The position numbers were made by a program, and so were the translations under genes. Below the pieces are notes generated by a model that worked only from the letters and a program-made list of their open reading frames with translations, was not told where the DNA came from and did no database searches. 41,064 nucleotides of DNA from Thiothrix sp. (GTDB lineage Bacteria > Pseudomonadota > Gammaproteobacteria > Thiotrichales > Thiotrichaceae), in the NCBI RefSeq assembly GCF_028714775.1, contig NZ_JAQTLS010000028.1:1-41064 (forward strand), in the 5' to 3' direction. Shown piece by piece: positions 9,899 through 40,480 of the stretch (position 1 is the stretch's first letter; the number at the start of each line of letters is the position of its first letter).

Positions 9899-9922
9899 GT
9901 TTATCTCCTTGGACAAATCACT

Positions 9923-21129: not shown

Positions 21130-23550
21130 ATGAAAGTTATACGTAAAACCATGCTGGCATCCTGCATTGCCTCGCTGGTCACACTTGCCGCCCCGGTGCA
21201 GCAAGTGTGGGCAGAAGGCAATTTGCAGGATGTCATGAAAGCACGTGGGTTAACCGAGAAAGATATTCTCGCCGCAGCCAAAACCTATACCCCTACTGGT
21301 GGGCGCGACGAATACCTTGCGTTCAGTTCTGGCGGGCAAAGCGGACAGGTGATCGTGTACGGTATCCCGTCCATGCGCATTCTCAAATACATCGGGGTAT
21401 TCACCCCTGAACCGTGGCAAGGCTACGGCTTTGATGACGAATCCAAGGAAGTCCTTGCCCAAGGCAAGATCAACGGCAAGGACATCAACTACGGTGACAC
21501 CCACCACCCGGCCTTCTCCGAAACCAACGGGGATTACGATGGGCGTTACCTGTTCATCAATGACAAAGCCAACCCGCGTATTGCCGTCATTGACCTGAAA
21601 GACTTCGAGACCAAGCAGATTGTGGTCAACCCTTTCATGAAATCGGCACACGGCGGCGCATTCGTCACCACCAACACCGAATACGTGATGGAAGCCAGCC
21701 AGTATGCGGCACCCTACAGCAAGGATTTCGTGCCCTTAAGCAAGTTCAACGACGAATACCGGGGGGCATTGACCTACTGGAAGTTCGATAAGGAAAAGGG
21801 GCGGATTGACCCGGAAAAGTCATTTACGTTTGAGCTTGCCCCTTACAGCCAAGACTTGTCCGATGCGGGCAAAGGGCCATCTGAAGGCTGGGGCTTCACC
21901 AACTCGTTCTGTTCCGAGCGTTATGTCGGCGGTATTGAGAAAGGCCGCCCGCCCTATGAGGCAGGTTGTTCCGCCAAGGACACCGACTTCATGCACGTCA
22001 CCAACTGGAAAAAGGCTGCTGAACTGGTGGCAGCGGGCAAAGTCCCCAAAGTCAATGGCGCTTACCTGATTACCCTGAAGCAAGCGACTGAGGAAGGTTT
22101 GCTGTACCTGATCCCTGAACCCAAAAGCCCGCACGGGGTTGATGTCGTGCCAACCGGCGACAAGATTGTGGTAGGTGGCAAACTGGACAGCAATACTTGG
22201 GTATATGACTGGAAGAAAATTCAGGATGCCATTGCCAATAAGAAGTTTGAAGGCAAGGATGACTACGGTGTACCCATTATTTCGCTGCAAGACGCGCTGC
22301 ACAAATCCGTGCCAGTGGGCTTGGGGCCATTGCATACCCAGTTTGACTCCAAACCGTGCGTGGCCTACACCTCCATCTACGTCGATTCGATGATCACCAA
22401 ATGGGATTACTGCGAAGGCAAGGTGCTGGATCAGTTGGCCATCCACTACAACGTCGGTCACTTGATGACGATGGAAGGCGATACCGTTAGCCCGGACGGC
22501 AAGTACTTGGTTGCCCTGAACAAACTGGCGATTGACCGCTTCAACCCGGTCGGGCCGTTGCATCCACAAAACCATCAGTTGATCGACATTAGTGGCGACA
22601 AGATGCAACTGTTGTATGACATGCCCATCCCACTGGGGGAACCGCACTATGTGGCAGCGATCAAGGCTGACAAGCTCAAACCTGAAATCCGTTACAGGTC
22701 TGGCTGGAACTCACGTACAGACACAGAATCTCCCTACAAGACCCGTGCCGGTCAGGAAAAGACCGTGCGTGAAGGTACCGATGTGCATGTTTATGGCACA
22801 ACCATCCGTTCCCACATCACCCCTGAAACCATTGAGGTACAGGAAGGCGATACCGTGCATATCCACCTGACCAACTTGGAGCGGGCGGAAGATGAAACCC
22901 ACGGTTTTGCGATGTACGGGCAGAATGTCCAGCTTTCCCTCGAACCGGGCAAAACCTCCTCCGTTACTTTCAAGGCTGAGAAAGCGGGTGTTTACCCTTA
23001 CTACTGCACCGAGTTCTGTTCCGCGCTGCACTTGGAAATGCAAGGCTATTTGTTAGTCCAGCCTAAGGGTTACGTCGCACCAGCAGGTGAAGGCGAAGTG
23101 ACCGACGGCACGCAATACACCCAAGCGGACTACGACAAGCAAACCAAGACCAACGTTGAAACTCAGGCGGTTATCGACTCGGTGGTGGGCTTCATTACCA
23201 GCCACAACTACAAGGACTTCCCTGAAGTGGTGGCACTGGTTGAGGACGCAACCGACCAGCTTGGTTTCGCTAAGGATGCCAAAACCAAGGGCGAAGAGTT
23301 CGCGGCAAAAGGCGACTGGAACAAGGCAATGGGTTGGGCGAACCAGTGGTGGCAGTATCAGGTGAAAACGGCTGACATGGGCTTGCGTGCCAAGACCTTC
23401 CTTGAGGAACATGGCGCGAAAGCGGCTGATCCGGCGGCGGCTCCAGCTCCGGCGGCAGCGCCTGCACCAGCAGCGGCTCCAGCAGCAGCTCCGACAGCAC
23501 CTGTGCCAGCGACTCCAGCAGCGCCCGCACCAGCTCCAGCAGCCAAGTAG
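21130..23550 (+). CDS. nosZ: Nitrous oxide reductase NosZ, clade II (Sec-exported)
   Basis: NosZ reduces N2O to N2 in the periplasm. The signal peptide (about residues 1-29, ending QVWA) has no twin-arginine motif, the mark of clade II enzymes. CuZ histidines are visible in DTHHPAF, SAHGGAF, SPHGVDV, GPLHTQFD, NVGHLM and GEPHYVAA. The CuA site is YYCTEFCSALHLEM near 624-637. After the cupredoxin domain (about residue 650) an unusual tail of ~155 residues follows: a helical, Trp-containing stretch to ~762, then a low-complexity Ala/Pro segment. There is no CxxCH in it, whereas Wolinella-type NosZ ends in a cytochrome c domain. It is the first gene of the nos cluster, behind the box at 21006-21019. 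Confidence 0.97.
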   Translation: MKVIRKTMLASCIASLVTLAAPVQQVWAEGNLQDVMKARGLTEKDILAAAKTYTPTGGRDEYLAFSSGGQSGQVIVYGIPSMRILKYIGVFTPEPWQGYGFDDESKEVLAQGKINGKDINYGDTHHPAFSETNGDYDGRYLFINDKANPRIAVIDLKDFETKQIVVNPFMKSAHGGAFVTTNTEYVMEASQYAAPYSKDFVPLSKFNDEYRGALTYWKFDKEKGRIDPEKSFTFELAPYSQDLSDAGKGPSEGWGFTNSFCSERYVGGIEKGRPPYEAGCSAKDTDFMHVTNWKKAAELVAAGKVPKVNGAYLITLKQATEEGLLYLIPEPKSPHGVDVVPTGDKIVVGGKLDSNTWVYDWKKIQDAIANKKFEGKDDYGVPIISLQDALHKSVPVGLGPLHTQFDSKPCVAYTSIYVDSMITKWDYCEGKVLDQLAIHYNVGHLMTMEGDTVSPDGKYLVALNKLAIDRFNPVGPLHPQNHQLIDISGDKMQLLYDMPIPLGEPHYVAAIKADKLKPEIRYRSGWNSRTDTESPYKTRAGQEKTVREGTDVHVYGTTIRSHITPETIEVQEGDTVHIHLTNLERAEDETHGFAMYGQNVQLSLEPGKTSSVTFKAEKAGVYPYYCTEFCSALHLEMQGYLLVQPKGYVAPAGEGEVTDGTQYTQADYDKQTKTNVETQAVIDSVVGFITSHNYKDFPEVVALVEDATDQLGFAKDAKTKGEEFAAKGDWNKAMGWANQWWQYQVKTADMGLRAKTFLEEHGAKAADPAAAPAPAAAPAPAAAPAAAPTAPVPATPAAPAPAPAAK

Positions 23551-23563
23551 GGAAATCTCCCCC

Positions 23564-23577
23564 TTGATTTGAGTCAA
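23564..23577. promoter_or_regulatory. FNR/DNR-type box between nosZ and nosC1
   Basis: TTGAT-TTGA-GTCAA with flanking CCC and GGC resembles the norC box, including its outer bases. It starts 13 bases after the nosZ stop. A start at +41.5 would fall near 23612, about 50 bases before nosC1, so the accessory nos genes may have their own oxygen- or NO-controlled promoter. Confidence 0.75.
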
Positions 23578-23603
23578 GGCGGGAATATAAGTAATAGTTG
23601 ATA

Positions 23604-23634
23604 AAGGGGGCAGTCTACCTGCCCCTTACTTTTG
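23604..23634 (+). terminator. Hairpin after nosZ (weak or partial terminator)
   Basis: AAGGGGGCA (23604-23612) can pair with TGCCCCTT (23620-23627) around a seven-base loop, followed by ACTTTT. One G is bulged and the T run is short. It would partly terminate nosZ mRNA and give the enzyme a higher transcript level than the accessory genes. Confidence 0.55.
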
Positions 23635-23662
23635 GGCTAACCCAATTCGAGGAGAACCGTTC

Positions 23663-23986
23663 ATGTTCAAGTTTACCAAAACCGCTTTGCTGACAGCCGT
23701 GGCACTGACAGCCTTTTCCAGCGGAGCGTTGCAAGCAGCCGATGGCGCAGCACTGTACACCGCCAAAACCTGCGTTGCCTGTCACGGTGCGGATGCCAAA
23801 ACCCCGATCCTGCCCGCTTACCCCAAAATTGCGGGGCAAAATGAAACTTACGTCCTGCAACAGTTGAAAGACATCAAGTCCGGGACGCGCAGCAATGGCA
23901 TGTCAGCAGCGATGAAAGCGGTCATGGCGACTGTTTCCGATGAAGAAATGGCAGCCTTGGCAACGTATGTTGCTGGCTTGAAGTAA
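23663..23986 (+). CDS. nosC1: Monohaem cytochrome c of the nos cluster (NosC1-type)
   Basis: A 107-residue periplasmic cytochrome c with a Sec signal peptide (about 1-25, ending LQAA) and one haem site, CVACH, near residues 37-41. It resembles cytochrome c553-type proteins. In clade II nos clusters such as that of Wolinella, NosC1 and NosC2 are thought to carry electrons from menaquinol oxidation to NosZ. The mature part is clearly homologous to the first domain of the next gene (shared QLKDIKSG or QMKDIKSG, SDEEM and TYVA-type ends). GAGGAGAA lies upstream of the ATG. It is 16 bases before nosC2. Confidence 0.88.
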   Translation: MFKFTKTALLTAVALTAFSSGALQAADGAALYTAKTCVACHGADAKTPILPAYPKIAGQNETYVLQQLKDIKSGTRSNGMSAAMKAVMATVSDEEMAALATYVAGLK

Positions 23987-24002
23987 TACGGGGAGAACCA
24001 TC

Positions 24003-25277
24003 ATGACAGGAATCAACAAAATCACCCTCGTGCTGGTGGCGCTGTTTGCCAGCACTGCGGGCAGCCATGCACTTGCCGCCGATCTGGATGGCGCAAAACT
24101 GTTTGCCGACAAGACCTGTGTCACTTGCCACGGTAAGGATGCCAATACCCCGATCATGGCAGGCTACCCAGCGATTGGCGGTCAAAGCGCCGAATACGCC
24201 CTCCAGCAAATGAAGGACATCAAAAGCGGCGCACGCAAGAATGGTCAGGCAGAAGCCATGAAGGTCGTCATGCAACTCGTCAGCGACGAGGAAATGGTAG
24301 CCTTGGCAAAATACGTTGCCACCTTGGAATACAAGCCGGGGATGGCGGTTTCTAGGCTGGAAAAGAAAGATGCAGCCCCTGCTGCTGCGGCTACCCCAGC
24401 GGCAGCAGCACCAGCTACGCCTGCGTCCGCACCCACGGCGGAAGCCAAACCCGCCGACAGCATGGAAGAGCAGTTGAAAAAGATTGCAGCGGCAGGCAAA
24501 ACCGATGCACCAGCGGCTGCACCCGTAGCAGCAGCAATGCCCGCAGCGGCAACCACCACCCCATCCGCAGCCCCCGCCACGGGTGAGAAACCCGCCGCCG
24601 CCATGACTGGCAAAAGCGGTGAAGGCAAGAACGTGTGGATGGCGGAAGGCTCGGAGCGCGAAGCGGTCATGGACTTGAAACCCGACCTGAAAAATGGCCT
24701 TGAAGTCTACGAAGTCTGTTCCGGCTGCCATCTGGGCGAAGGCTGGGGCAAACCAGACGGCACCTTCCCGCAACTGTCCGGGCAACACAAGGAAGTGCTG
24801 ATTAAGCAATTAGCGGACATACGCGCCAAAAACCGCGACAACCCCACCATGTACCCGTTTGCCCTGCCCGAAGCCATCGGCGATGAACAGGCATTGGCGG
24901 ATGTGGTCGGTTACATCGAAAGCCTGCCCATGAACCCGGACAATGGCAAAGGCGAATGGGCGGAAGGTACACCCGAATTTACCAAGGGCAAGCAACTCTA
25001 CGCCGACAACTGCGTGAAGTGCCACGGTGAGGACGGCATGGGCAAGGCCGACAAGTTCTACCCGCGCATTGACGGGCAGCATTACAACTACATGCTGCGC
25101 CAGTTTGAATGGATTCGTGATGGCAAGCGCCGCAACGCCAACCCGGAAATGGTGGATCAGATCAAAGTGTTCACTGACATGGACATGAAGATGGTGGTCA
25201 ACTATGCCTCGCGCCTGCCAGTTCCCAAGGATGACGTAGCGCCCTCGACAGACTGGAAAAACCCTGACTTTAACTAG
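24003..25277 (+). CDS. nosC2: Tri-haem cytochrome c (NosC2-like fusion)
   Basis: A 424-residue exported cytochrome with three haem sites: CVTCH (39-43), CSGCH (239-243) and CVKCH (337-341). A signal peptide covers about residues 1-26. The first domain (27-110) is a near copy of NosC1. A low-complexity Ala/Pro/Thr linker of ~100 residues (about 118-205) follows, then a dihaem cytochrome c4-like pair. NosC2 proteins as I know them are dihaem, so this looks like a NosC1 duplication fused to NosC2. It would give a long, flexible electron carrier for NosZ, which has a similar Ala/Pro tail. The nosB start follows after 12 bases. Confidence 0.87.
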   Translation: MTGINKITLVLVALFASTAGSHALAADLDGAKLFADKTCVTCHGKDANTPIMAGYPAIGGQSAEYALQQMKDIKSGARKNGQAEAMKVVMQLVSDEEMVALAKYVATLEYKPGMAVSRLEKKDAAPAAAATPAAAAPATPASAPTAEAKPADSMEEQLKKIAAAGKTDAPAAAPVAAAMPAAATTTPSAAPATGEKPAAAMTGKSGEGKNVWMAEGSEREAVMDLKPDLKNGLEVYEVCSGCHLGEGWGKPDGTFPQLSGQHKEVLIKQLADIRAKNRDNPTMYPFALPEAIGDEQALADVVGYIESLPMNPDNGKGEWAEGTPEFTKGKQLYADNCVKCHGEDGMGKADKFYPRIDGQHYNYMLRQFEWIRDGKRRNANPEMVDQIKVFTDMDMKMVVNYASRLPVPKDDVAPSTDWKNPDFN

Positions 25278-25289
25278 GGATGGAACATC

Positions 25290-26477
25290 ATGAGCATTGG
25301 CAAAAATCGGGTGCTGTTCGCCAACCTGTTAATCATCGGGGCGATTGTCACGCTGGTGGCAATCTATTTTACCCCGGTGTGGTGGGTATCGCTGACCGCG
25401 CCCAATTACCCTGAGGAAGCGTTCCCCGATGGGGTGCGCATCCACTTCGGCATGAGCGGCGTGACCAACGGCTGCCAAAAAGTGGAAAAGGCCGAGATCA
25501 GCGAAGGCGAGGCACTCGATTGTGTGCATGAGATGGACACCATCAACCACTACGTGGGCATGTACCCGATTGCCGCAGGCGGGGTGGTGGAAAAAGCCTT
25601 TTCCCCGTTCCTGACAGGCTTGCTGGTGGTGATGTTACTGGGCTTTTTGTTCTCCAACCCGAAAGCACGGGCTGGGGTCATGGCTCTCGGATTTGGCGGC
25701 ATTGTGGTGTGGATGGCGATGACATGGTACGGGGCAGATGGCTTGAAGTACCAAAGCACCGGCTACGTCTACGCTTTGGTCACGTCACTGGATCAGGACA
25801 CCTCCAAGGATGAAGGTGCGGCGGATGCGGAATCGGATGGGGGGATTGTGGCACGCCTCAAGGCTTCAATGGCGAAAAGCACCGGGGAAGCCGCTCCCGC
25901 TGCTGCTGCCCCCAAGGCAACTCCGGCGGAAGGGGTGGAAAAGGACGGTTACATCCAGCATTTGCAGGTGATGTTCGAGAAAGCGCAGGAACGCAAACCC
26001 GCCAATGAGCGCCAGACTTGGGATGGCAGCGGCTCACAGGTGATGTCGTGGCATTATGGGCAGAGTCTGGGGCGTTACTTCAACAACCCGGCGGAAATCC
26101 TGCCGATGGTAAGTACCATGTCGGTGGTTGCCCAAGTGGTGTTCTGGGGCATCCCGCTAGCCATGCTGCTGTTGCTGTGGGGGGCTTGGAAAGGTATCCG
26201 CCCGCTGTACTGGTTGCTGATTCTGGTGCCGCTGGCATTGCCGCTGTTTTTCATCATCGAGTATTCCGGCTGGCTGTGGTGGTACGGGCATAGCCTGAAT
26301 GCAATGGGTGCGTTTACTGTCAAGCCGTTTATGCCGACGGTGTTTGGGCAGGGCAAGGTGGCGCAATTCACCACCCATTCCTACCCCTACATCGGCTTCT
26401 TCCTGATGCTGTTGTCGGCGGGGATGCTGAGCTTGGCGGCCTTGTTGCGGCGTAAGCAAATGCAAGCGGGGGAATAA
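25290..26477 (+). CDS. nosB: NosB-like polytopic membrane protein
   Basis: NosB is a large membrane protein found only in clade II nos clusters. It is needed for N2O respiration but its chemistry is unknown. The 395-residue protein has about six hydrophobic segments (near 8-30, 100-120, 127-148, 275-298, 303-325 and 360-385). A first outer loop holds two cysteines (GCQKVEK and LDCVHEMD). A second large loop (about 165-270) includes an Ala/Pro-rich stretch and ends in WHYGQSLGRYFNNPAEI. The name rests on position between nosC2 and nosD, size and topology. The gene starts 12 bases after nosC2 and is followed by nosD after 3 bases. Confidence 0.8.
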   Translation: MSIGKNRVLFANLLIIGAIVTLVAIYFTPVWWVSLTAPNYPEEAFPDGVRIHFGMSGVTNGCQKVEKAEISEGEALDCVHEMDTINHYVGMYPIAAGGVVEKAFSPFLTGLLVVMLLGFLFSNPKARAGVMALGFGGIVVWMAMTWYGADGLKYQSTGYVYALVTSLDQDTSKDEGAADAESDGGIVARLKASMAKSTGEAAPAAAAPKATPAEGVEKDGYIQHLQVMFEKAQERKPANERQTWDGSGSQVMSWHYGQSLGRYFNNPAEILPMVSTMSVVAQVVFWGIPLAMLLLLWGAWKGIRPLYWLLILVPLALPLFFIIEYSGWLWWYGHSLNAMGAFTVKPFMPTVFGQGKVAQFTTHSYPYIGFFLMLLSAGMLSLAALLRRKQMQAGE

Positions 26478-26480
26478 GGT

Positions 26481-27770
26481 ATGAAAATCGGGGGGATGCT
26501 TCTGGTTCTCTTGCTGCTGTCACCCCTGCCAGCACTGGCAGCCTTCCCCTCCTTCCAAGCCTTGGTCGATGCCACCGCAGAAGGCGGCATCCTGACCCCA
26601 CCCGCCGGAACGTATGCAGGCCCAGTGGTGATCAACAAACCCATGCAAATCGACGGGCGCAATGAAGTCACCATTGACGGCGGCGGCAAAGGCACGGTGG
26701 TATTGCTGGACACCGACAATGCTACCCTGAAAAACCTGCACCTGACCAACTCCGGCGTATCCCACAATGACATTGATTCAGGGGTGCAAGTGCGCGGCAA
26801 AAACAATGTCATCAAGGACAGCGTGATCGACAATTGCCTGTTCGGGGTGGACTTGCAGCAGTCGGAAAGCAATGTGGTGCGCCGCAACCACATCAGCTCC
26901 AAGCCGTTTGAACTGGGCTTGCGCGGCGATTCGGTACGCCTCTGGTACAGCTTCTACAACAAGATTACTGACAATATTGTGGAGGACAGCCGCGACATGG
27001 TGGTGTGGTATTCCGCCAATAATGAAATCAAGCACAACAAGGTGACAGACAGCCGCTATTCGCTGCATTTCATGTACTCCAAGACCAATCTGGTGGAAGA
27101 CAACGAGTACTACAACAATGCGGTCGGCATTTTCCTGATGTACAGCGACGGGGTGGTGGTGCGCAACAATTCGATCACCCATGCGGCAGGGCCAACCGGG
27201 GTGGGGATTGGTTTCAAGGAAACCTCCGACCTGATGGTCGAAAACAACAAGGTGTTGTATTGCGCCAGTGGGTTTTACATTGATATGTCGCCGTTCCAGC
27301 CGGACACCACCAACCAGTTCAGGAACAACCTGCTGGCGTATAACGACATCGGGGTGCGGTTTTTGAATGACTGGCGCGGCAATACCTTCCAGCAGAACCA
27401 GTTTGTGGACAATATGACCCCAGTGGTGGTGTCCGGGCGCGGCACTGCCAATAACAATGTCTGGGATGATAATTACTGGAGTGATTATCAGGGTTTTGAC
27501 CGTAACCATGATGGGGTCGGCGATACCCCGCATGAAATTTATTCCTATGCCGACCGGCTGTGGCAGCAAGTCTCGGATGCACAATTCTTTAAAGGATCGC
27601 CCCTGCTGGAGGCGCTGGATTTTCTGGAACGCCTTGCGCCATTTTCCAAGCCCACCCTGTTGATCCGCGATAAAACCCCACGCATGGCGATGCTGCAAGC
27701 GATGCCTGCGGCAGCCGCTAAACCGCAGAAAAAAGATGCACTGGAAATGTTACTGGAGGCACAACAATGA
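26481..27770 (+). CDS. nosD: NosD, copper-site maturation protein (beta-helix)
   Basis: NosD is an exported right-handed beta-helix protein that works with the NosFY ABC transporter to mature the CuZ centre of NosZ. The signal peptide is MKIGGMLLVLLLLSPLPALA (1-20). The body contains many NxxV/NxI rungs, for example GNNVIK-type turns NNVIKDSVIDN, NKITDNIVED, NEIKHNKVTD and NVWDDNYWSDYQGFD, the last being the conserved NosD ending. The 429-residue length is normal. The stop overlaps nosG by four bases (ATGA), so translation is coupled. Confidence 0.95.
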   Translation: MKIGGMLLVLLLLSPLPALAAFPSFQALVDATAEGGILTPPAGTYAGPVVINKPMQIDGRNEVTIDGGGKGTVVLLDTDNATLKNLHLTNSGVSHNDIDSGVQVRGKNNVIKDSVIDNCLFGVDLQQSESNVVRRNHISSKPFELGLRGDSVRLWYSFYNKITDNIVEDSRDMVVWYSANNEIKHNKVTDSRYSLHFMYSKTNLVEDNEYYNNAVGIFLMYSDGVVVRNNSITHAAGPTGVGIGFKETSDLMVENNKVLYCASGFYIDMSPFQPDTTNQFRNNLLAYNDIGVRFLNDWRGNTFQQNQFVDNMTPVVVSGRGTANNNVWDDNYWSDYQGFDRNHDGVGDTPHEIYSYADRLWQQVSDAQFFKGSPLLEALDFLERLAPFSKPTLLIRDKTPRMAMLQAMPAAAAKPQKKDALEMLLEAQQ

Positions 27771-28576
27771 GTGTCCTGAACCCGCTGATAAAACAGAAAC
27801 AACGCCGCCAGTTCCTGCGGTCTGCCTTGCTGATGGTAGGCGTAGTGGGCGTGTCCCTGCTGGGGGCAATACCCGTGCTGGGGCAATGGGCCAAACGCCT
27901 GCGCCCGCCCGGTGCGTTGAAGGAACGGGAATTTCTGGCCTCCTGCATCAAGTGCGGACAATGCGTACAGGTCTGCCCGGTCAATGCCATCAAGTTGGCA
28001 GATTTGGATGAGGGCTTTGGGGTCGGTTCGCCCTATATTGATGCCCGCGCCCAAGCCTGCGATTTTTCCTGTGACGGGCTGCAATGTGTGCTGGCGTGTC
28101 CTACCGGAGCCTTGACCCACCACATCAATTACCCGCATGAAGCCAAGATGGCAGTTGCCAAGGTCGTTTCCCCGCAAACCTGCCTTGCTGTACAGGGCAA
28201 AGGCTTCAAGGGGCTGGCACGCGGGGCGGATTACAGCGGGAAACTACGCTTTGAAGAAATCGACCGCTGGAACCCTATCCCGCTGGCAGAACACCCCTTC
28301 GACCTAGAAATCTGTGACCTGTGCGTGCGTTTATGCCCCATCGAAATCCGTGCCAACCAGTGCGATGCAGGCAAACCACCTTCCGGCGACCCCGGTCAAT
28401 GCCCGCCACGCCACGCTATCCGGCTAGTGGATATTGATCAGGATGGCAGCACCAAAAAGATGCGCCCCGAAATACTCGACGGTTGTGTCGGCTGCGGGGT
28501 ATGTGAAATGGTTTGTCCGGCAGAACCCGCTGTCATTGTGATGGACAGTACTGCCAGCCGGGGGTTATCCGCATGA
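27767..28576 (+). CDS. nosG: NosG, NapG-like periplasmic ferredoxin
   Basis: A 269-residue protein with four [4Fe-4S] motifs: CIKCGQCVQVCP, CDGLQCVLACP, CDLCVRLCP and CVGCGVCEMVCP. The N terminus, RRQFLRSALLMVGVVGVSLL, has a twin-arginine motif and a hydrophobic stretch, so Tat export to the periplasmic face is likely, as for NapG. With NosH it is proposed to form a menaquinol dehydrogenase that feeds cytochromes c and NosZ. The gene overlaps both neighbours by four bases (ATGA). Confidence 0.92.
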   Translation: MSVLNPLIKQKQRRQFLRSALLMVGVVGVSLLGAIPVLGQWAKRLRPPGALKEREFLASCIKCGQCVQVCPVNAIKLADLDEGFGVGSPYIDARAQACDFSCDGLQCVLACPTGALTHHINYPHEAKMAVAKVVSPQTCLAVQGKGFKGLARGADYSGKLRFEEIDRWNPIPLAEHPFDLEICDLCVRLCPIEIRANQCDAGKPPSGDPGQCPPRHAIRLVDIDQDGSTKKMRPEILDGCVGCGVCEMVCPAEPAVIVMDSTASRGLSA

Positions 28577-31827: not shown

Positions 31828-31829
31828 AG

Positions 31830-33233
31830 ATGTTGCCGGAACTGCCGTTGCTGGCGTGGTTGCGGCGGCGGTTGGCTGAGGAGGGTGTTGGGGAGGGCGC
31901 ACACGGGGGTGCGCCCCTACGGGAGGATGCGCTGTTCAGTGTTACGTTGGTCGTGCCGTCGGGATTGTGTCCACTGCCTGATTTGCGTACCGATTTTCTC
32001 CAATCCTGTTTTTACTGGCATCGGCCTGAGCAACAGCATGGTGTGGTGGGGCTGGGCGAAGCTGTACGCTGTGTGGCAACGGGGGAAAGCCGCTTTGCTG
32101 ACCTGAAACAGCAGTTTGCCCAACTGGATAGCAACTGGCACAAGGTCGGGGAGGCGATGCCCATTGCTGCCATGACGGGCTATGCGTTTGATGCCACAGA
32201 TACAGATGGGGATGGCTTGTGGCAAGGGTTTCCCAATGCCCTGTTATATGTGCCGGAACTGGTGATGGAGCAGCGGGGGCAACGCACGACGTTGACATTG
32301 ACGGTGCGGCTTGGTGGCAAGGCATGGCAGGAGGTGTTGGTGCGGTGGCGGGAATTGGTGGCAGGGTTGGATGTAGGGTGGGTGGAGCGAATGCGATACC
32401 CACCGCTCCGAATGGTGGGTATCGCTACGCTCCACCCACCCTACGTATCTTCCTCCCAACAAGACTGGTTTTCCTTGGTCAACCAAGCCAAAGCCGCCAT
32501 CCACAACGGTGAACTGCACAAGCTGGTAGTCGCCCGCCGCACCCGCCAGCCGCTCCTGCCCGGTGTTGATGCCGCCGTGCTGATGCGCCGGATGCAGCAA
32601 CATTACCCCTCCTGCACCCTGCTGGCAGTTTCCTTTGGCACTAGCTGGTTGCTGGCAGCCACCCCCGAACGGCTGGTATCGCTGCGTGATGGCAGGGTGA
32701 GCTGCGACGCGCTGGCTGGAACCATTGCCCGCAAGCCGGGACGGGCGAATTTCCCCGCCCGGATGCGCGAAGCGGAACACCCGCCCGTAATCGCAGCTAT
32801 CCGTCAGGCACTCACCAAGGTGTGTAGCGAAGTCAGTGTCGGCCAGCAGATGCAGACCCTTTCCCTGCCACATTTGCAACACCTGTGGACAGAAATCAGC
32901 GGCAAGGCACTACCGGGTATCCGGGTACTGGACTTGCTGGAATGTCTGCATCCCACCCCCGCCATCAACGGTTTCCCCGCAGCCCCGGCGCGGCAATGGC
33001 TGCGCACGCATGGCAACCACCAGCGTGGCTGGTACAGCGGCGGGGTCGGCTGGTTGCGGCATAATGGGGAAGGCGAACTGTCGGTGCTGTTGCGCTGCGC
33101 CCTGCTGCAAGATGGGGAAGCCCACCTGTTTGCCGGGGCAGGCATCGTGGCGGATTCCGACCCCCAGCAGGAATGGGATGAAACCGAACTGAAACTGGAC
33201 ACGCTGCGGAGGCTGCTGGATGCAGGCAACTGA
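31830..33233 (+). CDS. menF: Isochorismate synthase (menaquinone)
   Basis: MenF converts chorismate to isochorismate, the first step of menaquinone synthesis. The chorismate-binding domain begins near residue 215 with VNQAKAAIHNGELHKLVVAR and includes ATPERLVSL, ALAGTIARKPG, HPTPAINGFP and GWYSGGVGWL, all family marks. The ATG at 31830 gives 467 residues, about 35 longer than E. coli MenF. The excess is accounted for by two in-frame palindromic repeats (residues ~22-31 and ~182-205) that lie outside the conserved core. It starts 2 bases after nosY, so it appears to be in the nos transcript, and it overlaps menD. Confidence 0.92.
   Translation: MLPELPLLAWLRRRLAEEGVGEGAHGGAPLREDALFSVTLVVPSGLCPLPDLRTDFLQSCFYWHRPEQQHGVVGLGEAVRCVATGESRFADLKQQFAQLDSNWHKVGEAMPIAAMTGYAFDATDTDGDGLWQGFPNALLYVPELVMEQRGQRTTLTLTVRLGGKAWQEVLVRWRELVAGLDVGWVERMRYPPLRMVGIATLHPPYVSSSQQDWFSLVNQAKAAIHNGELHKLVVARRTRQPLLPGVDAAVLMRRMQQHYPSCTLLAVSFGTSWLLAATPERLVSLRDGRVSCDALAGTIARKPGRANFPARMREAEHPPVIAAIRQALTKVCSEVSVGQQMQTLSLPHLQHLWTEISGKALPGIRVLDLLECLHPTPAINGFPAAPARQWLRTHGNHQRGWYSGGVGWLRHNGEGELSVLLRCALLQDGEAHLFAGAGIVADSDPQQEWDETELKLDTLRRLLDAGN
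31895..31923. repeat. In-frame GC-rich palindrome in menF (first)
   Basis: GGGCGCAC (31895-31902) and GTGCGCCC (31909-31916) form an 8-bp hairpin followed by CTACGGG. It encodes GAHGGAPLR in the variable N-terminal part of MenF. Sequences of this style occur as dispersed repeats in many bacterial genomes. Copies elsewhere in this genome cannot be seen from the window. Confidence 0.6.
32373..32444. repeat. In-frame 72-bp palindromic element in menF (second)
   Basis: Two arms of about 31 bases, 32373-32404 and 32414-32444, are near-perfect inverse copies (outer part GTAGGGTGGGTGGAGCG, inner part GCGATACCCACC) around a short loop. The element is 24 codons long, reads through as DVGWVERMRYPPLRMVGIAT-like sequence and sits in the linker just before the conserved chorismate-binding domain. 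The structure is that of a REP/MITE-type repeat inserted in frame. Confidence 0.85.
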
Positions 33234-34893
33234 TACCGGAACCGTCAACCTGCTCTGGTGTGCTGCCTTGTTGGCAGGGCTGGTGGAGGCAGGGGTGGAA
33301 GAAATCGTCATTTCCCCCGGCTCACGCAACACCCCGATGACGCTGGTAGCCGACCTCAACCCCGACTTGCGTTGCTGGGTACAGATTGATGAACGCAGTG
33401 CTGCCTTTTTTGCCCTTGGCATGGCAAAAGCCAGCTGCAAGCCCGTAGCCTTGCAATGTACTTCCGGCACGGCTGCGGCCAACTGGTTCTCTGCCGTGGT
33501 CGAAGCCAGCCAGAGCGGTATCCCGCTGATCCTGCTGACGGCTGACCGCCCGTGGGAATTGCAGCAGTGCGGCGCAAACCAGACCATCGACCAGATCAAG
33601 CTGTTCGGCTCCCATGTGCGGGCTTTCCACCAACTCTCCGAAGCAGACGGTTCGGACAAGGCATTGCGGCGTGTCCACCAACTGGCAGTACAAGTGGTGC
33701 AGGAAAGCCTGTGGCCCAAACCGGGGCCAGTGCATATCAACGTGCCGTTGCGTGAACCATTGCTACCTACAGGTAAAATCCCTTCCCTCTTGCCCCCTTC
33801 ACCCCTTGCGGGGGAAGGGCTGGGGACGCGGGGGAATGCGTGTGGTACGGTCTATGCCCCACCCGCCCAATTAACCCACATCTGCGACACCATCAGCGGC
33901 AAGCCGGGATTGATCGTGTGCGGTGAAGGTGTTTACGACGACACATTCCCCGCCGTACTGATGCATCTGGCGCAAACACTGGATGCCCCGGTGCTGGCTG
34001 ACCCCCTTGCCAATCTGCGTTTCGGGGGGCATGTCAGTGGACACTTGTTGTCCCGTTACGATGCTTTCCTGCGGGATGTCACCTTCACAGGTAGCCATAT
34101 ACCGCAATGGGTGCTGCGTTTCGGCACGATGCCCGTATCCCGTGCTTTGCAGCAATACTTGTCGGGCAGCCAGCTCCCTTTGCACATTGTGGTGGATGGG
34201 CAAGGTGGCTGGTCTGACCCGCTTTTCCAACAGTCACTGATGGTCAGGGCTTCCCCGAAGGCTTTTTGCCAGCAGCTTGCCACACTGAAACCCCAGCCTG
34301 CCGCAAGGTCGTGGCTGGAAAGTTTCAGGCAGGCGGAACAGGAAAACGGGGCAGTACTGGATGCTGACCCACGAACCGAAGCCGTTATTATCCGCCAGAT
34401 GCTCAATACCTTACCGGAAGGTTCGCTGCTGTTTTCCGGCAATTCCATGCCCATCCGCCACCTTGACCATTATTCGGGTAAGGGAGTAAAGGGGTTGAAA
34501 GTTGCCGCCAACCGTGGGGCAAGCGGGATTGATGGCAATATTTCCACCCTGCTGGGGATGGCTGCGGTGCATCCCGGCAAAACCGTGGCTTTGCTGGGCG
34601 ATCTGACCTTTTTCCACGACATGAATGGCTTGCTGTTGGCGAAACAGGCCAATGCGGTCATCGTGTTGCTGAACAATAATGGTGGGGGGATATTCCGCCA
34701 ACTGTCGCAAGCCAAACTGGAACAAGCGCAGTTTGAACGTTACTGGCTGACCCCGATTGGGTTGGATTTCTCGCTGGTGGCGCAACTGTATGGACTGGGG
34801 TTTGAGCGCATCCACGGCGCGGACGGTTTTGCGGCGGTATTCGACCATGCGCTGGGGCAAGAACGGACGTGTGTGATTGAAGTCATGCTTTAA
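33220..34893 (+). CDS. menD: SEPHCHC synthase MenD (menaquinone)
   Basis: MenD is a thiamine-diphosphate enzyme that joins 2-oxoglutarate-derived succinic semialdehyde to isochorismate. Visible features are [12 protein letters not shown] (31-42), [11 protein letters not shown] with the catalytic-domain glutamate near 58, the [18 protein letters not shown] stretch, and the ThDP/Mg site [12 protein letters not shown] with NNNGGGIF. At 557 residues it matches E. coli MenD. A segment at about residues 187-206 ([17 protein letters not shown]) has the composition of a common dispersed repeat and falls in the variable linker. It overlaps menF by 14 bases. menB follows after 11 bases. Confidence 0.95.
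33780..33836. repeat. In-frame repeat element in menD
   Basis: A C-rich stretch (CCCTTCACCCC) facing a G-rich stretch (GGGGGAAGGG) forms an imperfect hairpin near 33795-33819, with further purine-rich sequence after it. It encodes [14 protein letters not shown], the typical translation of a dispersed repeat found in many proteobacteria. It keeps the menD frame. Confidence 0.6.
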
Positions 34894-34904
34894 AGGAAAT
34901 AGTT

Positions 34905-35729
34905 ATGGAATGGATACCCGTAGCGGGTAAGGTGTTTGAAGACATCCTCTATCACCACAGCGGTGATGGAATTGCTAAAATTACCATCAACCGCCCGGAA
35001 GTGCGCAATGCCTTCCGCCCGGAAACCGTACTGGAACTGATGCAAGCTTTCCACCATGCGCATGTGTCGTCGGACATCGGCGTCATTATCCTTACCGGGC
35101 AGGGAGACAAGGCGTTCTGTTCCGGCGGCGACCAGAAAGTACGCGGTGAACACGGTGGCTACTGCGACGGGCAAGGGGTGCAAAGCCTGAACGTGCTGGA
35201 TTTGCAGCGCCAAATACGCACCCTGCCCAAGCCGGTGGTGGCAATGGTGGCAGGCTACGCCATCGGCGGCGGGCATGTGCTGCATTTGGTCTGCGACTTG
35301 AGCCTTGCGGCAGATAATGCCCGTTTCGGTCAGACTGGCCCCAAGGTGGGCAGTTTCGATGCCGGGTTGGGTGCTGGGTTGTTGGCACGGACTGTTGGTA
35401 TGAAAAAGGCTAAGGAAATCTGGTTCCTGTGCCGCCAGTACGGGGCGGATGAGGCTTTACAGATGGGGCTGGTGAATGCGGTCGTGCCACTGGCGGAACT
35501 GGAGGCCGAAACCGTGCGCTGGTGCAGGCAGATGTTGCAGCATTCGCCGACGGCTTTGCGGATGCTGAAAGCCGGTTTCAACGCTGACACCGACGGGCTG
35601 TCTGGAATCCAGGAACTGGCGGGCAATGCCACCGCGCTGTTCTACATGTCGGTGGAGGCACAGGAAGGGCGCAATGCCTTTGTGGAAAAGCGCCAGCCGG
35701 ATTTTTCAACTTTCCCGCGCCGTCCCTGA
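34905..35729 (+). CDS. menB: 1,4-dihydroxy-2-naphthoyl-CoA synthase MenB
   Basis: MenB is a crotonase-fold enzyme that closes the naphthoquinol ring from o-succinylbenzoyl-CoA. Marks are [25 protein letters not shown] (oxyanion-hole segment), [31 protein letters not shown] and [16 protein letters not shown]. The 274-residue length is usual. AAAGGA precedes the ATG at a suitable distance. It is 11 bases after menD and its stop overlaps menA. Confidence 0.95.
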
Positions 35730-36598
35730 TGATGCAGTTGCAGGCGTGGCTGCTGGCAGTGCGCCCCAAAACACTGGGGATGGCGGTGATCCCGGTGGTG
35801 GTGGGGAGTGCGTTGGCGTTTGCCCAAACCCACGGCTTCCAGTGGTTGCCTGCCTTGGCTGCGTTGCTGGTAGCGGTGCTGATCCAGATGGGAACCAACC
35901 TGCACAATGATGTTGCCGACCATGCCAATGGGGTGGATACAGCCAATCGGTTGGGACCATTACGGGTGACGGCTGCGGGGCTGTTGATAGCGGCACAGGT
36001 GATGCAGGGGGTGAAACTTTGTTTTCTGCTGGCTTTTTGCCTTGGCGTTTATCTGGTGGCGGTGGGTGGCTGGGTGATACTGGTAGCGGGCTTGTTGTCG
36101 CTGGCGGCTGGGGCTGCTTATTCAGGTGGAAAATACCCCATTTCCCATTCACCGTTCGGGGAAGTGTTTGTGCTGGTATTTTTTGGCGTGGTGGCGGTGG
36201 TCGGTAGCTATTACCTACAAACCTTGCAGGTGGACAGTAAGGCATTGCTGGCGGGCTGTATCTTGGGTTTGCCCGCAGCGGCGGTGCTGGTGGTCAACAA
36301 TACCCGTGATCGGGAGTCTGACCAGCAGGCGGGGCGACGCACCTTGGCGGTGATCATGGGTACGGCCTTTTCCTGTGTGGAATATGCCAGTTTGCTGCTG
36401 TTGCCGTTTGTTATGGTTGCTGCTAGCGGGTTGGGGAAATATTTGCCCTTGCTGGTTTTGCCGTGGGCAGTTTATCTGGTCAGGGCTTTTTGCCGGGTGC
36501 AGCAGGCGGGGGAATTTAATCCCCTGTTGCCGCAGACGGCGCAGTTCCAGTTAGTGCTGGGTTTGTTACTGGCTGTAGGGGAGGTTCGCTACGAATGA
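35729..36598 (+). CDS. menA: 1,4-dihydroxy-2-naphthoate polyprenyltransferase MenA
   Basis: MenA attaches the polyprenyl tail to dihydroxynaphthoate in the membrane, giving demethylmenaquinol. The UbiA-type Asp motif is NLHNDVADHANGVD near 52-65, followed by NRLGPLRVTAAGLL, and the second motif is NNTRDRESDQQAGRRTLAV near 191-209. Eight to nine hydrophobic segments are visible, in 289 residues. The start overlaps the menB stop by one base (TGATG), with a second ATG right after it as an alternative. The stop overlaps menC (ATGA). Confidence 0.94.
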   Translation: MMQLQAWLLAVRPKTLGMAVIPVVVGSALAFAQTHGFQWLPALAALLVAVLIQMGTNLHNDVADHANGVDTANRLGPLRVTAAGLLIAAQVMQGVKLCFLLAFCLGVYLVAVGGWVILVAGLLSLAAGAAYSGGKYPISHSPFGEVFVLVFFGVVAVVGSYYLQTLQVDSKALLAGCILGLPAAAVLVVNNTRDRESDQQAGRRTLAVIMGTAFSCVEYASLLLLPFVMVAASGLGKYLPLLVLPWAVYLVRAFCRVQQAGEFNPLLPQTAQFQLVLGLLLAVGEVRYE

Positions 36599-37614
36599 TA
36601 AAACTGAAACGCATCATGCTACGCCCTTATGCCCTACCGTTGCAGATACCATGGCAGAGCAGCCGGGGGAACATGGCCTGTCGACGGGGTTGGCTAGTTT
36701 GCCTAAAAACGGCGGATGGTCATGTGGCTTACGGTGATTGCCCTCCCATGCCGGAAGCGGGGACAGAAACCGCCGCACAAGCGTGGGTAAGCCTGCAACA
36801 CTTGCAACGGCAGTTAACTGGCTTACCCGTGGTGACTGCGTTGGAAGAAATGGGGCATGTTACACCTGCTGCCCGCTACGCAGTTGAAACCGCTTTATTG
36901 GAACTATGTGCTCGGCAACGGCAGATACCAATTGCCCACTTACTCAACCACGCAGCACCGATGGCTATTTCGGTCAATACGGTATTGGGTGGCTTAGGGC
37001 AGGGGGGGCTTACTCAGGTTATTCAGGCTGTCGAAGAGGGATTTAGTATTCTTAAATTCAAAGTTGGTTTGCAGAGTGTACGGCAAGAACTGGATGGGCT
37101 ACATCAGTTAGTGGATTCTCTGCCTCCTAATGTACGCTTGAGGCTGGATGCTAACCGGGCATGGCCTTTACCGCTGGCGCGTCAGTTTTTGCGGGAGATT
37201 GCAGATTTGCCCATTGAGTCACTGGAAGAACCTTTACAACAAGCTGATGCGGACGATTGGTTGGGTTTGCAGGCATTGGTGTCTTTCCCATTGGCATTGG
37301 ATGAGTCTTTGCCCCGGTGGCAACACGGTATTACTGCCCATCCTGCCCAACGGTTAATGCTTAAACCGACGGTATTGGGCGGGCTAGTTCCCGCTTTCCG
37401 GCTGGCACAGCGGGCTATAGATGCTGGCAAGGAATGTGTGGTGACAACGGTAGTCGACAGCGCCGTAGGGGTGAGGGCGACTGCACATCTAGCCACAGCA
37501 CTAGACAATGGTCTGGCACATGGTTTGGCAACGTCTTCTTGGTTATTAAAGGATGTGACCCAACCACCCCAAATTATGGGGGGGATGCTACGGTTAAACC
37601 ATGATGTTTCCTGA
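36595..37614 (+). CDS. menC: o-Succinylbenzoate synthase MenC
   Basis: MenC is an enolase-superfamily dehydratase that makes o-succinylbenzoate. Catalytic pieces are FKVG with its lysine (ILKFKVGL), the metal ligands in RLDANRAW, ESLEEPL and LALDESL, and the second lysine in LMLKPTVLGG. The 339-residue length is normal. The ATG at 36595 overlaps the menA stop, and the end overlaps the thioesterase gene by 14 bases. Base composition is slightly more AT-rich than in the nos genes, as in the following thioesterase and the minus-strand genes. Confidence 0.92.
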   Translation: MIKLKRIMLRPYALPLQIPWQSSRGNMACRRGWLVCLKTADGHVAYGDCPPMPEAGTETAAQAWVSLQHLQRQLTGLPVVTALEEMGHVTPAARYAVETALLELCARQRQIPIAHLLNHAAPMAISVNTVLGGLGQGGLTQVIQAVEEGFSILKFKVGLQSVRQELDGLHQLVDSLPPNVRLRLDANRAWPLPLARQFLREIADLPIESLEEPLQQADADDWLGLQALVSFPLALDESLPRWQHGITAHPAQRLMLKPTVLGGLVPAFRLAQRAIDAGKECVVTTVVDSAVGVRATAHLATALDNGLAHGLATSSWLLKDVTQPPQIMGGMLRLNHDVS

Positions 37615-37990
37615 AACTTTCATTTACCGTTTCCGCGTGCCGTTTCATCAGGTTGATAGGGCGGGAATCCTATTTTTTGCGCATGTATTTACTCATGCCC
37701 ACGATGCCTATGAAGCCTTTATGCGGCAAGAAGGGTTGGAACTGGGTGAGGTCGTAGATGCTGGGAAGGTTAGTATTCCGTTAGTACATGCGCAGGCAGA
37801 TTATCATTATCCCTTACGGCATGGGGATGACATTCGGGTGGAATTATCGGTTGGGGCGACGGATAAAACTTCAGTGGCAGTGGAATATGGCTTCTTTAAT
37901 GCTGAGAATATCCGTTGTGTCACGGTCAATACCGTGCACGTGTTTGTTAGGAAAACAACAGGTGGTAATCCGGCTTATGTTGGGCATTGA
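37601..37990 (+). CDS. menI: Hotdog-fold thioesterase, probable DHNA-CoA thioesterase
   Basis: A 129-residue 4-hydroxybenzoyl-CoA thioesterase-type hotdog protein. The family start YRFRVPFHQVDRAGILFFAHVF, with the catalytic aspartate D20, and HDAYEAFM are clear. In this operon it should release 1,4-dihydroxy-2-naphthoate from the CoA ester made by MenB, the MenI step. The assignment is by position and fold, because hotdog thioesterases vary in substrate. Its last 44 bases overlap the end of menE on the other strand. Confidence 0.83.
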   Translation: MMFPETFIYRFRVPFHQVDRAGILFFAHVFTHAHDAYEAFMRQEGLELGEVVDAGKVSIPLVHAQADYHYPLRHGDDIRVELSVGATDKTSVAVEYGFFNAENIRCVTVNTVHVFVRKTTGGNPAYVGH

Positions 37991-39203
37991 GGGGAAGGCT
38001 ATCCAGCTTGATAAAGTGGCGAGGCCGGAATGCGCCATGTAAATGTTGCTTGCTCCAACTTGCCAGTTCAGTTTCCTCTATTTGTCCGGTGAAGGCTGCC
38101 ACCAGTGTTTCCCCCCACGTAGCATCTGGTTTGCTGCCAACCATGACATTTTCCACACAAGGATGTTGTAACAGGGATTCCTCTACCTGCCGTGGATGGA
38201 TGTTTTCACCGCCGCTAATGATGATATTATCCAGCCTGCCTTGCACCACCAATTGCCCTTGGGTATCCAGATAACCAGCGTCCCCACTTTCCAGCCATAC
38301 ACCTGATGGCTGCGGTATAAAAGGGCTGTCCGGGTAAGCGTAACCCTCCATGATGCTATTGCCGCGCACGAGGATGCGTTGTTCTTCCCCAAAACCAATG
38401 TCCAAATGTTCCAGTGCTTGCCCTGCCTGACCTGCCATCCAGCTTTTAGGGGGAGGATAGCAAACTGCCACCATGGAGCAGGTTTCGGTCATGCCATAAG
38501 TTGGGCAAATCGGCCAACCGGATTTGATAGCCTGTTCCGCCAATTTTTCTGGCAGCGCGGCTCCCCCAATTAAGGCGATACGAAGGGATTTGGGGAGCGG
38601 GGAACAGTCTTGTGCTTCCAATAAGCGTTGTAACATACTGGGAACCAAGGAAATGCAGGTAACGTGGTAACGCTGGATGTCCTGCAAAACCCTTAATGGG
38701 TCAAATTTATCGTGCAGTAACAGGGATGCACCACTAACAGCGCAACGGTGTAGGATGGCAAGCCCACCAATATGAAATAGTGGTAGGCAGCATAGCCACA
38801 TGTCATTGGCAGATATTTCAAGGCGTTGGCAAACTGCGCGGGCACTGCTGTGGATTGCATTTTCTGTTAGCAGCACAGCTTTGGGTTGGCCTGAGCTACC
38901 GCTGGTTGCCAGCGCCAGCCGAATGTCTGGATGGGTTGGGGAGCAACGGATGCGGGCGGCGCTGATAAAACCTTCACGCTGGGTTTCAAGCCAGTTCGGG
39001 TCGAAACTCGCCAAACGGCAATCCAACCGTTCGGCGGCATAGGTCAGTAGGACGGTAGGTAGTGGGGAAGCGTCGGTTATCAACGTGTCCCCAGCTTTGA
39101 TCCCGTCTTGTTGTAGGTCTTTGCACAGTGTTGCTACCCGTCGGTTCAGCCAAGCCGGGCTTAGTGACACGCGCTGATAAATGATGCCGTGGCGGATAGC
39201 CAT
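37947..39203 (-). CDS. menE: o-Succinylbenzoate-CoA ligase MenE
   Basis: MenE is an acyl-adenylating enzyme that activates o-succinylbenzoate with CoA. Signature segments are LALATSGSSGQPKAVLLT (P-loop), CPTYGMTETCSM, and the C-terminal hinge GDAGYLDTQGQLVVQGRLDN with ISGGENIHPRQVEESL. At 418 residues it is a little shorter than E. coli MenE. I prefer the ATG at 39203, with GAAGG upstream, over a TTG at 39212 that overlaps the ubiE stop. It follows ubiE by 5 bases and ends inside the thioesterase gene of the opposite strand. Confidence 0.94.
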   Translation of the reverse strand: MAIRHGIIYQRVSLSPAWLNRRVATLCKDLQQDGIKAGDTLITDASPLPTVLLTYAAERLDCRLASFDPNWLETQREGFISAARIRCSPTHPDIRLALATSGSSGQPKAVLLTENAIHSSARAVCQRLEISANDMWLCCLPLFHIGGLAILHRCAVSGASLLLHDKFDPLRVLQDIQRYHVTCISLVPSMLQRLLEAQDCSPLPKSLRIALIGGAALPEKLAEQAIKSGWPICPTYGMTETCSMVAVCYPPPKSWMAGQAGQALEHLDIGFGEEQRILVRGNSIMEGYAYPDSPFIPQPSGVWLESGDAGYLDTQGQLVVQGRLDNIIISGGENIHPRQVEESLLQHPCVENVMVGSKPDATWGETLVAAFTGQIEETELASWSKQHLHGAFRPRHFIKLDSLPLNAQHKPDYHLLFS

Positions 39204-39208
39204 GCCCT

Positions 39209-39946
39209 TCAACCTTTCAGTGGCTTGACGCCGCTATGAATGCAAGCAATACCAAAACTCAGGTTATGGTAGCTAACCTGTTCTAGTCCGGCCTGTTCCA
39301 TGATGTGGCAAAGTTCTTGTTGGTTGGGGAAACGACGGATGGATTCTACCAGATAGGTGTAGGCAGTAGGCTGGCGGCTGATCCATGCCCCTAGTCTGGG
39401 GATGATGTAGAAAGAATGGAAATCGTAAAAAGGCTTGATTAGCCAGTGCGGATGGGAAAATTCCAAGCACCAATAACGCCCGCCTGGTTTTAATACCCGC
39501 ACAATCTCTGTTAGGGCGGTTTCCATACGGGTCATATTGCGGATACCGAAAGCGATGGTTAGCACATCCACAGAATTGTCCTGCAATGCTAAGTTTTCGC
39601 CTGTACTGGCAATGCAGCGCAAGTTTGTTGCCTGTGGGGCATTGCCTGCCCGCATCATGGCTAAGCTGGGGTCTATCAGTAGGGTGTTATGTCCACTACC
39701 CGCCAGTTTCAAAGCAATGTCACCCGTTCCCCCTGCCAGATCAACAACTGTTTGCCCTTTTTGAGGTTTGACCCGCTGGGTAAAACGGTGTTTCCACAAG
39801 CGGTGGATACCAAAACTCATGACATCATTCATGAGGTCATAACGGGGGGCAACTTTATTGAATACGTCGCGGATACGTTGCTCCCGCTCTACGTTTGAAA
39901 CTTGCTGGTAGCCAAATGTATCATCCAGTTGGTGTTTCTCCGTCAT
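39209..39946 (-). CDS. ubiE: Demethylmenaquinone/ubiquinone C-methyltransferase
   Basis: UbiE/MenG methylates the quinone ring with SAM, the last step of menaquinone synthesis and also a ubiquinone step. SAM motif I is VVDLAGGTGDIALKL, followed by LTIAFGIRNM, VLKPGGRYWCLEFS and the C-terminal YHNLSFGIACIHSG. The ATG at 39946 gives 245 residues with the normal N-terminal NVEREQRIRDVFNKVAPRYD. The start overlaps the stop of the upstream anchored protein by four bases (ATGA). Placement with menE suggests a copy serving menaquinone, possibly in addition to a general ubiE elsewhere. Confidence 0.94.
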   Translation of the reverse strand: MTEKHQLDDTFGYQQVSNVEREQRIRDVFNKVAPRYDLMNDVMSFGIHRLWKHRFTQRVKPQKGQTVVDLAGGTGDIALKLAGSGHNTLLIDPSLAMMRAGNAPQATNLRCIASTGENLALQDNSVDVLTIAFGIRNMTRMETALTEIVRVLKPGGRYWCLEFSHPHWLIKPFYDFHSFYIIPRLGAWISRQPTAYTYLVESIRRFPNQQELCHIMEQAGLEQVSYHNLSFGIACIHSGVKPLKG

Positions 39947-40419
39947 TTGCCAGTCCAAAAACGGTAAGGGACAGCAATGATGCCATTTGGGGTATGCAAT
40001 AGCACCTTGGCTTCCCACTCCATGCTGTCACGGATACAGACGGGGATGGTGATCGTGCCGTTGAACTTGCCCTCCCCCGCAGCGGGTAACTCGGCATGGT
40101 TCAGCCCCATGTTCATGTCTACGCCATTGAAATTGGCTTCAACCCGGCGGGTTATCACCCCTTCGACGCTGACGCTGAGGGCAAGGGGTTTCAGCACTGG
40201 CAGGGTGCGGGGTTCGATGCCGAATGTGACCTTGCCGCCTTCCGGCAAATTGCTGGTACAACTGCCCAGACGCAGGTCGCAGGCAGGGTCATGCGGAAGT
40301 TCGAGCAGGATTTCCGGTTGTAAGCGCCCGGACAGCCAATGCCCCGCTATGACCAGCAGAAAACTGCTGACCAGTACAATCATGAAAACCCATCGGGATG
40401 AAATTTTGACCATGAGCAT
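39943..40419 (-). CDS. Membrane-anchored protein of unknown function, FixH/YtkA-like in outline
   Basis: A 158-residue protein with one N-terminal membrane segment (about 10-27) and a soluble part that should face the periplasm. The soluble part is mostly beta-type sequence. It contains C47 and C54 (ACDLRLGSC), a Met/His group DMNMGLNH (M102, M104, H108) and PVCIRDSMEW (C128, M133), which together look like a possible copper or haem-metal site. The overall plan recalls FixH or YtkA-like domains, but I cannot assign it firmly. It is first in the operon with ubiE and menE, and lies behind an FNR/DNR-type box. A Met-Leu-Met start leaves two codons of doubt. Confidence 0.7.
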   Translation of the reverse strand: MLMVKISSRWVFMIVLVSSFLLVIAGHWLSGRLQPEILLELPHDPACDLRLGSCTSNLPEGGKVTFGIEPRTLPVLKPLALSVSVEGVITRRVEANFNGVDMNMGLNHAELPAAGEGKFNGTITIPVCIRDSMEWEAKVLLHTPNGIIAVPYRFWTGK

Positions 40420-40480
40420 AACCCCACTCTTTCAGCTATACCAACACGCCCCATCAAAACATGGGGAGGGGGGCTTATCC

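Follow-up and report, generated by a model that had tools for sequence, protein, structure and literature searches.

A clade II nitrous oxide reductase operon running on into menaquinone biosynthesis genes in Thiothrix

Can a locus for nitrous oxide (N2O) respiration bring along the quinone that supplies it? The question is raised by contig NZ_JAQTLS010000028.1 of Thiothrix sp. (G000:C28; 41,064 nucleotides, analysed whole and called the window below; genome G000, 4.30 Mb), where the nos operon of a clade II N2O reductase runs on into genes of menaquinone synthesis (men). This arrangement, noted in a preliminary description of the DNA, is confirmed and proved broader than first described. The nos part holds the following genes in this order (scores in bits, with the family cut-off).

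21130..23550, plus strand: nosZ, clade II (Sec-type) N2O reductase; TIGR04246, 873.8 bits (cut-off 625); CuA motif CTEFCSALH at residue 626
23663..23986, plus strand: cyc1, monohaem cytochrome c (nosC-like); PF00034; one CxxCH
24003..25277, plus strand: cyc2, cytochrome c (nosC-like); three CxxCH
25290..26477, plus strand: orfX, NosB candidate by inferred name; no NCBIfam family and no significant Pfam family
26481..27770, plus strand: nosD; TIGR04247, 388.2 bits (cut-off 300)
27767..28576, plus strand: nosG, NapG-like ferredoxin-type protein; PRK09476, 127.1 bits, under the cut-off of 269; Fer4 domains
28573..29547, plus strand: nosH, candidate NapH-like quinol dehydrogenase subunit; TIGR02163, 245.7 bits (cut-off 213); open reading frame (ORF) opens at 28513
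29544..30413, plus strand: nosF, ABC ATPase, below the listed family cut-offs; ORF opens at 29463
30410..30895, plus strand: nosL-like gene; PF05573, 22.5 bits, just under the cut-off of 24
30892..31827, plus strand: nosY, ABC permease; PF12679, 78.9 bits

The men part continues from nosY, its last genes being opposed on the other strand.

31830..33233, plus strand: menF, isochorismate synthase; TIGR00543, 261.6 bits (cut-off 224.75)
33220..34893, plus strand: menD; TIGR00173, 438.8 bits (cut-off 244.2)
34905..35729, plus strand: menB; TIGR01929, 438 bits (cut-off 342.7)
35729..36598, plus strand: menA; TIGR00751, 184 bits (cut-off 102.15)
36595..37614, plus strand: menC; TIGR01927, 137.3 bits (cut-off 130.55)
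37601..37990, plus strand: menI candidate, hotdog thioesterase; PF13279, recognised only as 4HBT-type
37947..39212, minus strand: menE, OSB-CoA (o-succinylbenzoate-CoA) ligase; TIGR01923, 292.6 bits (cut-off 330); PF00501; N-terminal part unmatched
39209..40018, minus strand: ubiE-like menG; TIGR01934, 250.5 bits (cut-off 158); lineage apart from housekeeping ubiE in a quick tree
39943..40419, minus strand: orfZ, no known family; nos-linked in other genomes

The nosY gene ends at 31827 and the menF ATG stands at 31830, leaving 2 nt between them, and after menF the spacing is −14 nt to menD, +11 to menB, −1 to menA, −4 to menC and −14 to menI. The junction and the tight series given in the preliminary description are thus borne out, as is the opposite strand of menE and ubiE. 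From cyc1 to menI, 15 genes follow one another with a largest gap of 16 nt, most neighbours overlapping. The classical Men set (MenF, D, C, E, B, A and G) is present, with MenE under its cut-off, and the gene families confirm that nearly the whole menaquinone pathway lies beside clade II nos, MenE and MenI being the weaker calls. No MenH was found among the window ORFs scanned, the rest of the genome not having been searched for it.

A clade II nos cluster of the Wolinella succinogenes type is composed of nosZ, B, D, G, C1, C2, H, F, Y and L. The window has clade II NosZ, nosD, nosG, nosH, two cytochromes c, nosF, nosY, a nosL-like gene and the NosB candidate, so that the expected clade II content (nosD, F, Y, L, G, H and c-type cytochromes) is there, with NosG, NosF and NosL below the listed cut-offs and NosH passing as a member of the NapH/MauN family. 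orfX is conserved in these nos clusters, sitting between cyc2 and nosD in relatives. Unlike the Wolinella type, the operon here runs on into six men genes. In Wolinella, NosC1 and NosC2 are predicted, in the accessible part of PMC11102522, to pass electrons from menaquinol to NosZ.

The reading preferred here, with a probability of roughly 0.6, is that of a denitrification locus making its own low-potential quinone in co-regulation with nos, with menaquinol feeding NosGH and, through it, clade II NosZ. Regulation is suggested by the palindrome TTGAN6TCAA, which we take to be an FNR/DNR-type motif. It occurs exactly seven times in the window against 0.86 expected, a count reached in none of 100 shuffles. 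Five of these boxes stand 61-110 bp before gene starts, four of them intergenic; the other two are inside cyc1 and nosH.

16014..16027, no strand assigned: FNR/DNR-type box, 72 bp before norC
18737..18750, no strand assigned: FNR/DNR-type box, 69 bp before fer45, within the final codons of gat, the ORF upstream
21006..21019, no strand assigned: FNR/DNR-type box, 110 bp before nosZ
23564..23577, no strand assigned: FNR/DNR-type box, 85 bp before cyc1
40481..40494, no strand assigned: FNR/DNR-type box, 61 bp before orfZ-ubiE-menE

Since boxes precede both the nos operon and orfZ, the men genes would be under the same type of signal from both sides. An FNR/DNR-type regulator presumably binds and turns on nosZ and cyc1, transcription most likely passes nosY into menF-D-B-A-C-menI, and the matching box may drive orfZ-ubiE(menG)-menE from the other side. 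Menaquinone would then be produced during N2O respiration, and menaquinol could pass electrons to NosH/NosG, the two cytochromes c and clade II NosZ, while probably serving other anaerobic quinol users too. In a pattern scan of positions 29400-41064, five promoter-like sites were found against 6.5 in shuffles, none of them at the nosY-menF junction, and 17 terminator-like sites against 14.6, no real excess, with one match inside nosY; both results are weak evidence.

The window's genome has this one MenD/MenB locus; a check for a second men set or a futalosine pathway gave neither, MqnA being absent. Profile cut-offs for MenD, MenB and clade II nosZ were applied to 63 genomes of the order, 16 of them of the genus. 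MenD and MenB passed in the same three order genomes (G000, G006 and G069) and MqnA in 0 of 63. Within the genus, MenD and MenB occur in two genomes, G000 and G006, the same two that have clade II nosZ over the cut-off; the other 14 are without MenD or MenB over the cut-off and without MqnA. These 14 genomes bear on the assumption of menaquinone in Thiothrix, which two reviews of the genus, in the parts accessible, depict or discuss as an electron carrier. UbiA was present in all 11 genus genomes searched and housekeeping-type UbiE in all 16 (each in two pieces in one genome), the housekeeping ubiE of the window's genome being at G000:C1. A second UbiE over the cut-off was found only in G000 and G006 and is the men-linked copy, of another lineage in the quick tree. 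The menaquinone pathway thus seems to supplement ubiquinone. A rhodoquinone pathway has been reported in Candidatus Thiothrix singaporensis, according to the accessible text of PMC11707229.

Menaquinone could instead be a substitute, given that ubiquinone synthesis needs oxygen. G006, with no UbiU-like match at E 1e-15, would suit this explanation, but the window's genome carries two ubiU-ubiV sets over the cut-off, that is, genes of oxygen-independent ubiquinone synthesis, with ubiT confirmed in one set and a similar ORF following the other, and a role as mere substitute is very improbable. One set (G000:C13, L256) lies beside a second norCB and the other (G000:C38, L257) beside a second moaA and narI-J-H-G. 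Quinone genes thus accompany three denitrification modules in one genome. The NarG and NarH pieces of C38 are 98-99% identical to those of the window.

Does the pairing reach beyond the genus? Among 369 genomes sampled from the class, each at least 80% complete, clade II nosZ exceeded its cut-off in 21 genomes, MenB in 25 and both in 12. MenB was found in 12 of the 21 clade II nosZ genomes against 13 of the 348 others (Fisher p 1e-10; 9e-10 when the window's genome is left out; kinship uncorrected in both), and by family in 9 of 17 against 7 of 153, the 170 families being assumed from handle numbers. Genomes with clade I nosZ only, identified by scoring lower with the clade II model, showed no tie to MenB (2/35 against 11/313 with neither; p 0.63). 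Two genomes with a cut or split clade II nosZ, G136 with MenB and G195 without, were excluded from the 21 and placed among those with neither, so that G136 counts among the 11. MqnA at E 1e-15 was found in one of the 369 genomes, one without clade II nosZ. MenB matches under the cut-off, in five class genomes, were not counted, nor was that of G070. The distance between nosZ and menB was 3.7 to 18.9 kb in eight of the 12 genomes with both, from five families, where random placement (shared ancestry ignored) expects 0.22.

The same nosY-menF junction, which the preliminary description proposed to look for elsewhere, recurs at 2 nt in a second Thiothrix, G006; in other families nosY is linked to men genes in different gene orders. 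The linkage at operon distances comprises G000, G006, G186, G314, Sedimenticola G084, G374, G280 and G166, from several families, the gene starts at the relatives' junctions being candidates. nosY is followed by ubiE (with a 4-nt overlap) and menE in G186, by orfZ and menF in G314 and Sedimenticola G084, and by a cytochrome and menC in G374, G280 and G166. The men genes of Sedimenticola G084 enclose the nos operon, with menE, menI and menC on one side and orfZ-menF-D-B-A past nosY. Where nosZ and men genes diverge, in G372, G279, G314 and two Sedimenticola metagenome-assembled genomes (MAGs), a box separates them; G280 and G166 have one some 40 bp ahead of menA, and G006 has two in the stretch from nirS to orfZ. 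Among 13 men loci from genomes without clade II nosZ over the cut-off (12 of the class sample, G136 excluded, and MO_103.B15, some of them truncated at contig ends), one, that of G170, had a box shortly before menF. Two boxes near menF of Lamellibrachia symbionts were not counted as they lie inside a reading frame. That similar pairings recur in other families suggests that nos and men were made to work together.

Named genomes gave a similar picture. A MenD search kept 80 loci, seven of them gammaproteobacterial, and six of these seven genomes have clade II nosZ: Thiothrix sp. 207, three Lamellibrachia symbionts and two Sedimenticola MAGs, in all of which nos and men adjoin on at least one contig. 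In MO_103.B15 men is present, and the search for clade II nosZ at E 1e-20 found nothing. G006 appears to be the Thiothrix sp. 207 MAG (record JAHJJD010000055.1); its nos-men island and 2-nt junction are those of the window, but it borders nirS and nor genes, whereas the island of the window borders an IS4-family transposase. The accessible text of PMC9455678 describes nosZ of Thiothrix sp. 207 as a probable acquisition that other Thiothrix lack, and mentions no men genes; a second nosZ-bearing Thiothrix MAG, STA 22, is described in the accessible part of PMC11355018. The part of PMC10300362 consulted reports a tubeworm symbiont without nirS, norBC and nosZ, which are present in all vestimentiferan symbionts and Sedimenticola, and also without men. 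This joint absence agrees with the linkage, a connection that the consulted text does not itself draw.

Linkage of this kind could also have arisen without any functional coupling, nos and men having been joined once and then co-inherited or co-transferred, with men hitchhiking. The trees lend this some support. A single proteobacterial men clade takes in every linked MenB and MenD row (support 94/98 and 100/99, respectively), and Thiothrix MenD groups with G314 and Sedimenticola (96/96) in a neighbourhood similar to that of NosZ, which suits an old nos-men locus. Against an old locus stand five members of the family with nosZ and without MenD/MenB, and G069, whose men genes are of another type. 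The linked rows do not form one branch, and the same men clade includes genomes without clade II nosZ (for example G267, G396 and MO_103.B15); it excludes five class genomes, of which the MenD tree has four, as well as the men type shared by G069, G163 and G300. Gene order and orientation vary (divergent, embedded or downstream) while the link is kept, boxes precede separate men operons in several genomes, and the other men type stands at nor in G069 and G163. Hitchhiking is on this evidence quite improbable. In G069:C213 (L150) the different men type lies directly before norC-B-E-Q-D, and in G163:C6 menB is 5.6 kb from norQ; in both, quinone genes are tied to nor instead of nos. The bootstrap of the MenB tree had not settled, the UbiE tree was a quick one with long branches, and G081 was left out of the NosZ tree, its gene being interrupted by Ns.

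The preliminary description had also proposed a transferable module, which is only partly supported. Two of 16 genus genomes carry it, G000 and G006, and in none of 200 two-marker bootstrap trees were they sisters; on the other side, no branch with strong support requires two origins, and NosZ of the window groups with other members of its family. No transfer genes were noticed beyond the IS4 fragment, no search having been aimed at them. A plasmid search with MenD gave 65 records, all below 60% identity; in the two inspected, the Azospirillum menD had no nos genes among its annotated neighbours and the Halomonas record was unannotated. It is tentatively proposed, as rather less than an even chance, that many ubiquinone-based Gammaproteobacteria perform clade II N2O respiration with a dedicated menaquinone, the fused nos-men locus being a portable respiration-plus-quinone unit formed more than once, men also occurring beside nor.

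Several results weigh against a dedicated menaquinone for clade II NosZ. Nine of the 21 clade II nosZ genomes have neither MenB over the cut-off nor MqnA, and six of these nine possess nosGH, the contigs of the other three being too short to tell; menaquinone is therefore not needed in general, and NosGH was dropped as a menaquinone marker because it also occurs without menaquinone markers. Within the family, G016, G040, G045, G046 and G059 (completeness 84-100%) have clade II nosZ without MenD/MenB over the cut-off. Four of the 12 genomes with both genes do not have them within 20 kb on one contig: they are far apart on one contig in G189 and on different contigs in G151, G163 and G357. In G186 the genes from menF to menI, which form a run of their own, lack an exact box, and with one mismatch allowed the window contains 26 boxes against 16.2 expected, a number reached by three of 100 shuffles. 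As a side observation, a ubiE 61-62% identical to that of the window lies beside nosZ in G040 (L143) and G045 (L144), which have no MenD/MenB over the cut-off there.

These results bear on a further explanation, in which menaquinone serves anaerobic respiration generally (nitrate, sulfur compounds, fumarate), nos only offers a handy site under FNR control and NosGH accepts both quinols. The six genomes with nosGH and without MenB and MqnA fit it, as do the men genes at nor in G069 and G163 and the presence of nar and nor in the window; the tie of MenB to clade II nosZ only, and not to clade I, argues the other way, and the explanation is considered unlikely. For the preferred reading, a locus making its own menaquinone for clade II N2O respiration, the sequence itself provides the gene content, the operon-tight layout, the boxes, a genome with no other menaquinone route found and the recurring nos-men linkage. 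Menaquinol as the electron donor to NosGH remains a sound hypothesis; the clade II genomes that yielded no menaquinone route weaken it. One quinone would then be tied to one clade of N2O reductase, which, if true, helps to explain where clade II NosZ, a biological N2O sink, can work, and the nos-men linkage offers a direct genetic test of the menaquinol need of NosGH.

According to the accessible text of Chobert et al. 2024 (PMC11707229), Men has repeatedly been gained by transfer in Pseudomonadota and the futalosine route is absent from the phylum. The classical Men locus described there likewise has MenF, D, B, A, C, E and MenG at one locus; the difference is that men is joined to nos here. 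The words "nitrous" and "nos" are absent from the main text of that paper. No earlier report of nos-men linkage was found in the open-access literature, a search of partial texts with supplements outside its scope.

Several clade II nos clusters, some with men and others lacking it, have orfZ next to or after nosY. Three Cys and an MNMG motif are invariant across five aligned sequences and might, as a guess, point to a copper role. Beyond orfZ and its box, the window is closed by a transposase fragment.

40698..41063, plus strand: start of an IS4-family transposase; NF033591, 64.8 bits, E 7e-18 (cut-off 152; fragment); no Pfam match; cut by the contig end

The left part of the window carries on the minus strand, in order, moaA, moeA, a DsrC-like gene, narI-J-H-G, a second DsrC-like gene and two MFS transporters, followed before nosZ by narXL-like genes, norCB-like genes, gat (glutamine amidotransferase), fer45 (ferredoxin-type protein) and nnrS. 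The two DsrC-like genes (2517-2825 and 9506-9916) flank narGHJI. Elsewhere in the same genome (G000:C42, L155:595-2430) a clade III lactonase-type NosZ is encoded (NF052460, 734.5 bits, cut-off 700), so that, with the clade II enzyme, the genome holds two kinds of N2O reductase.

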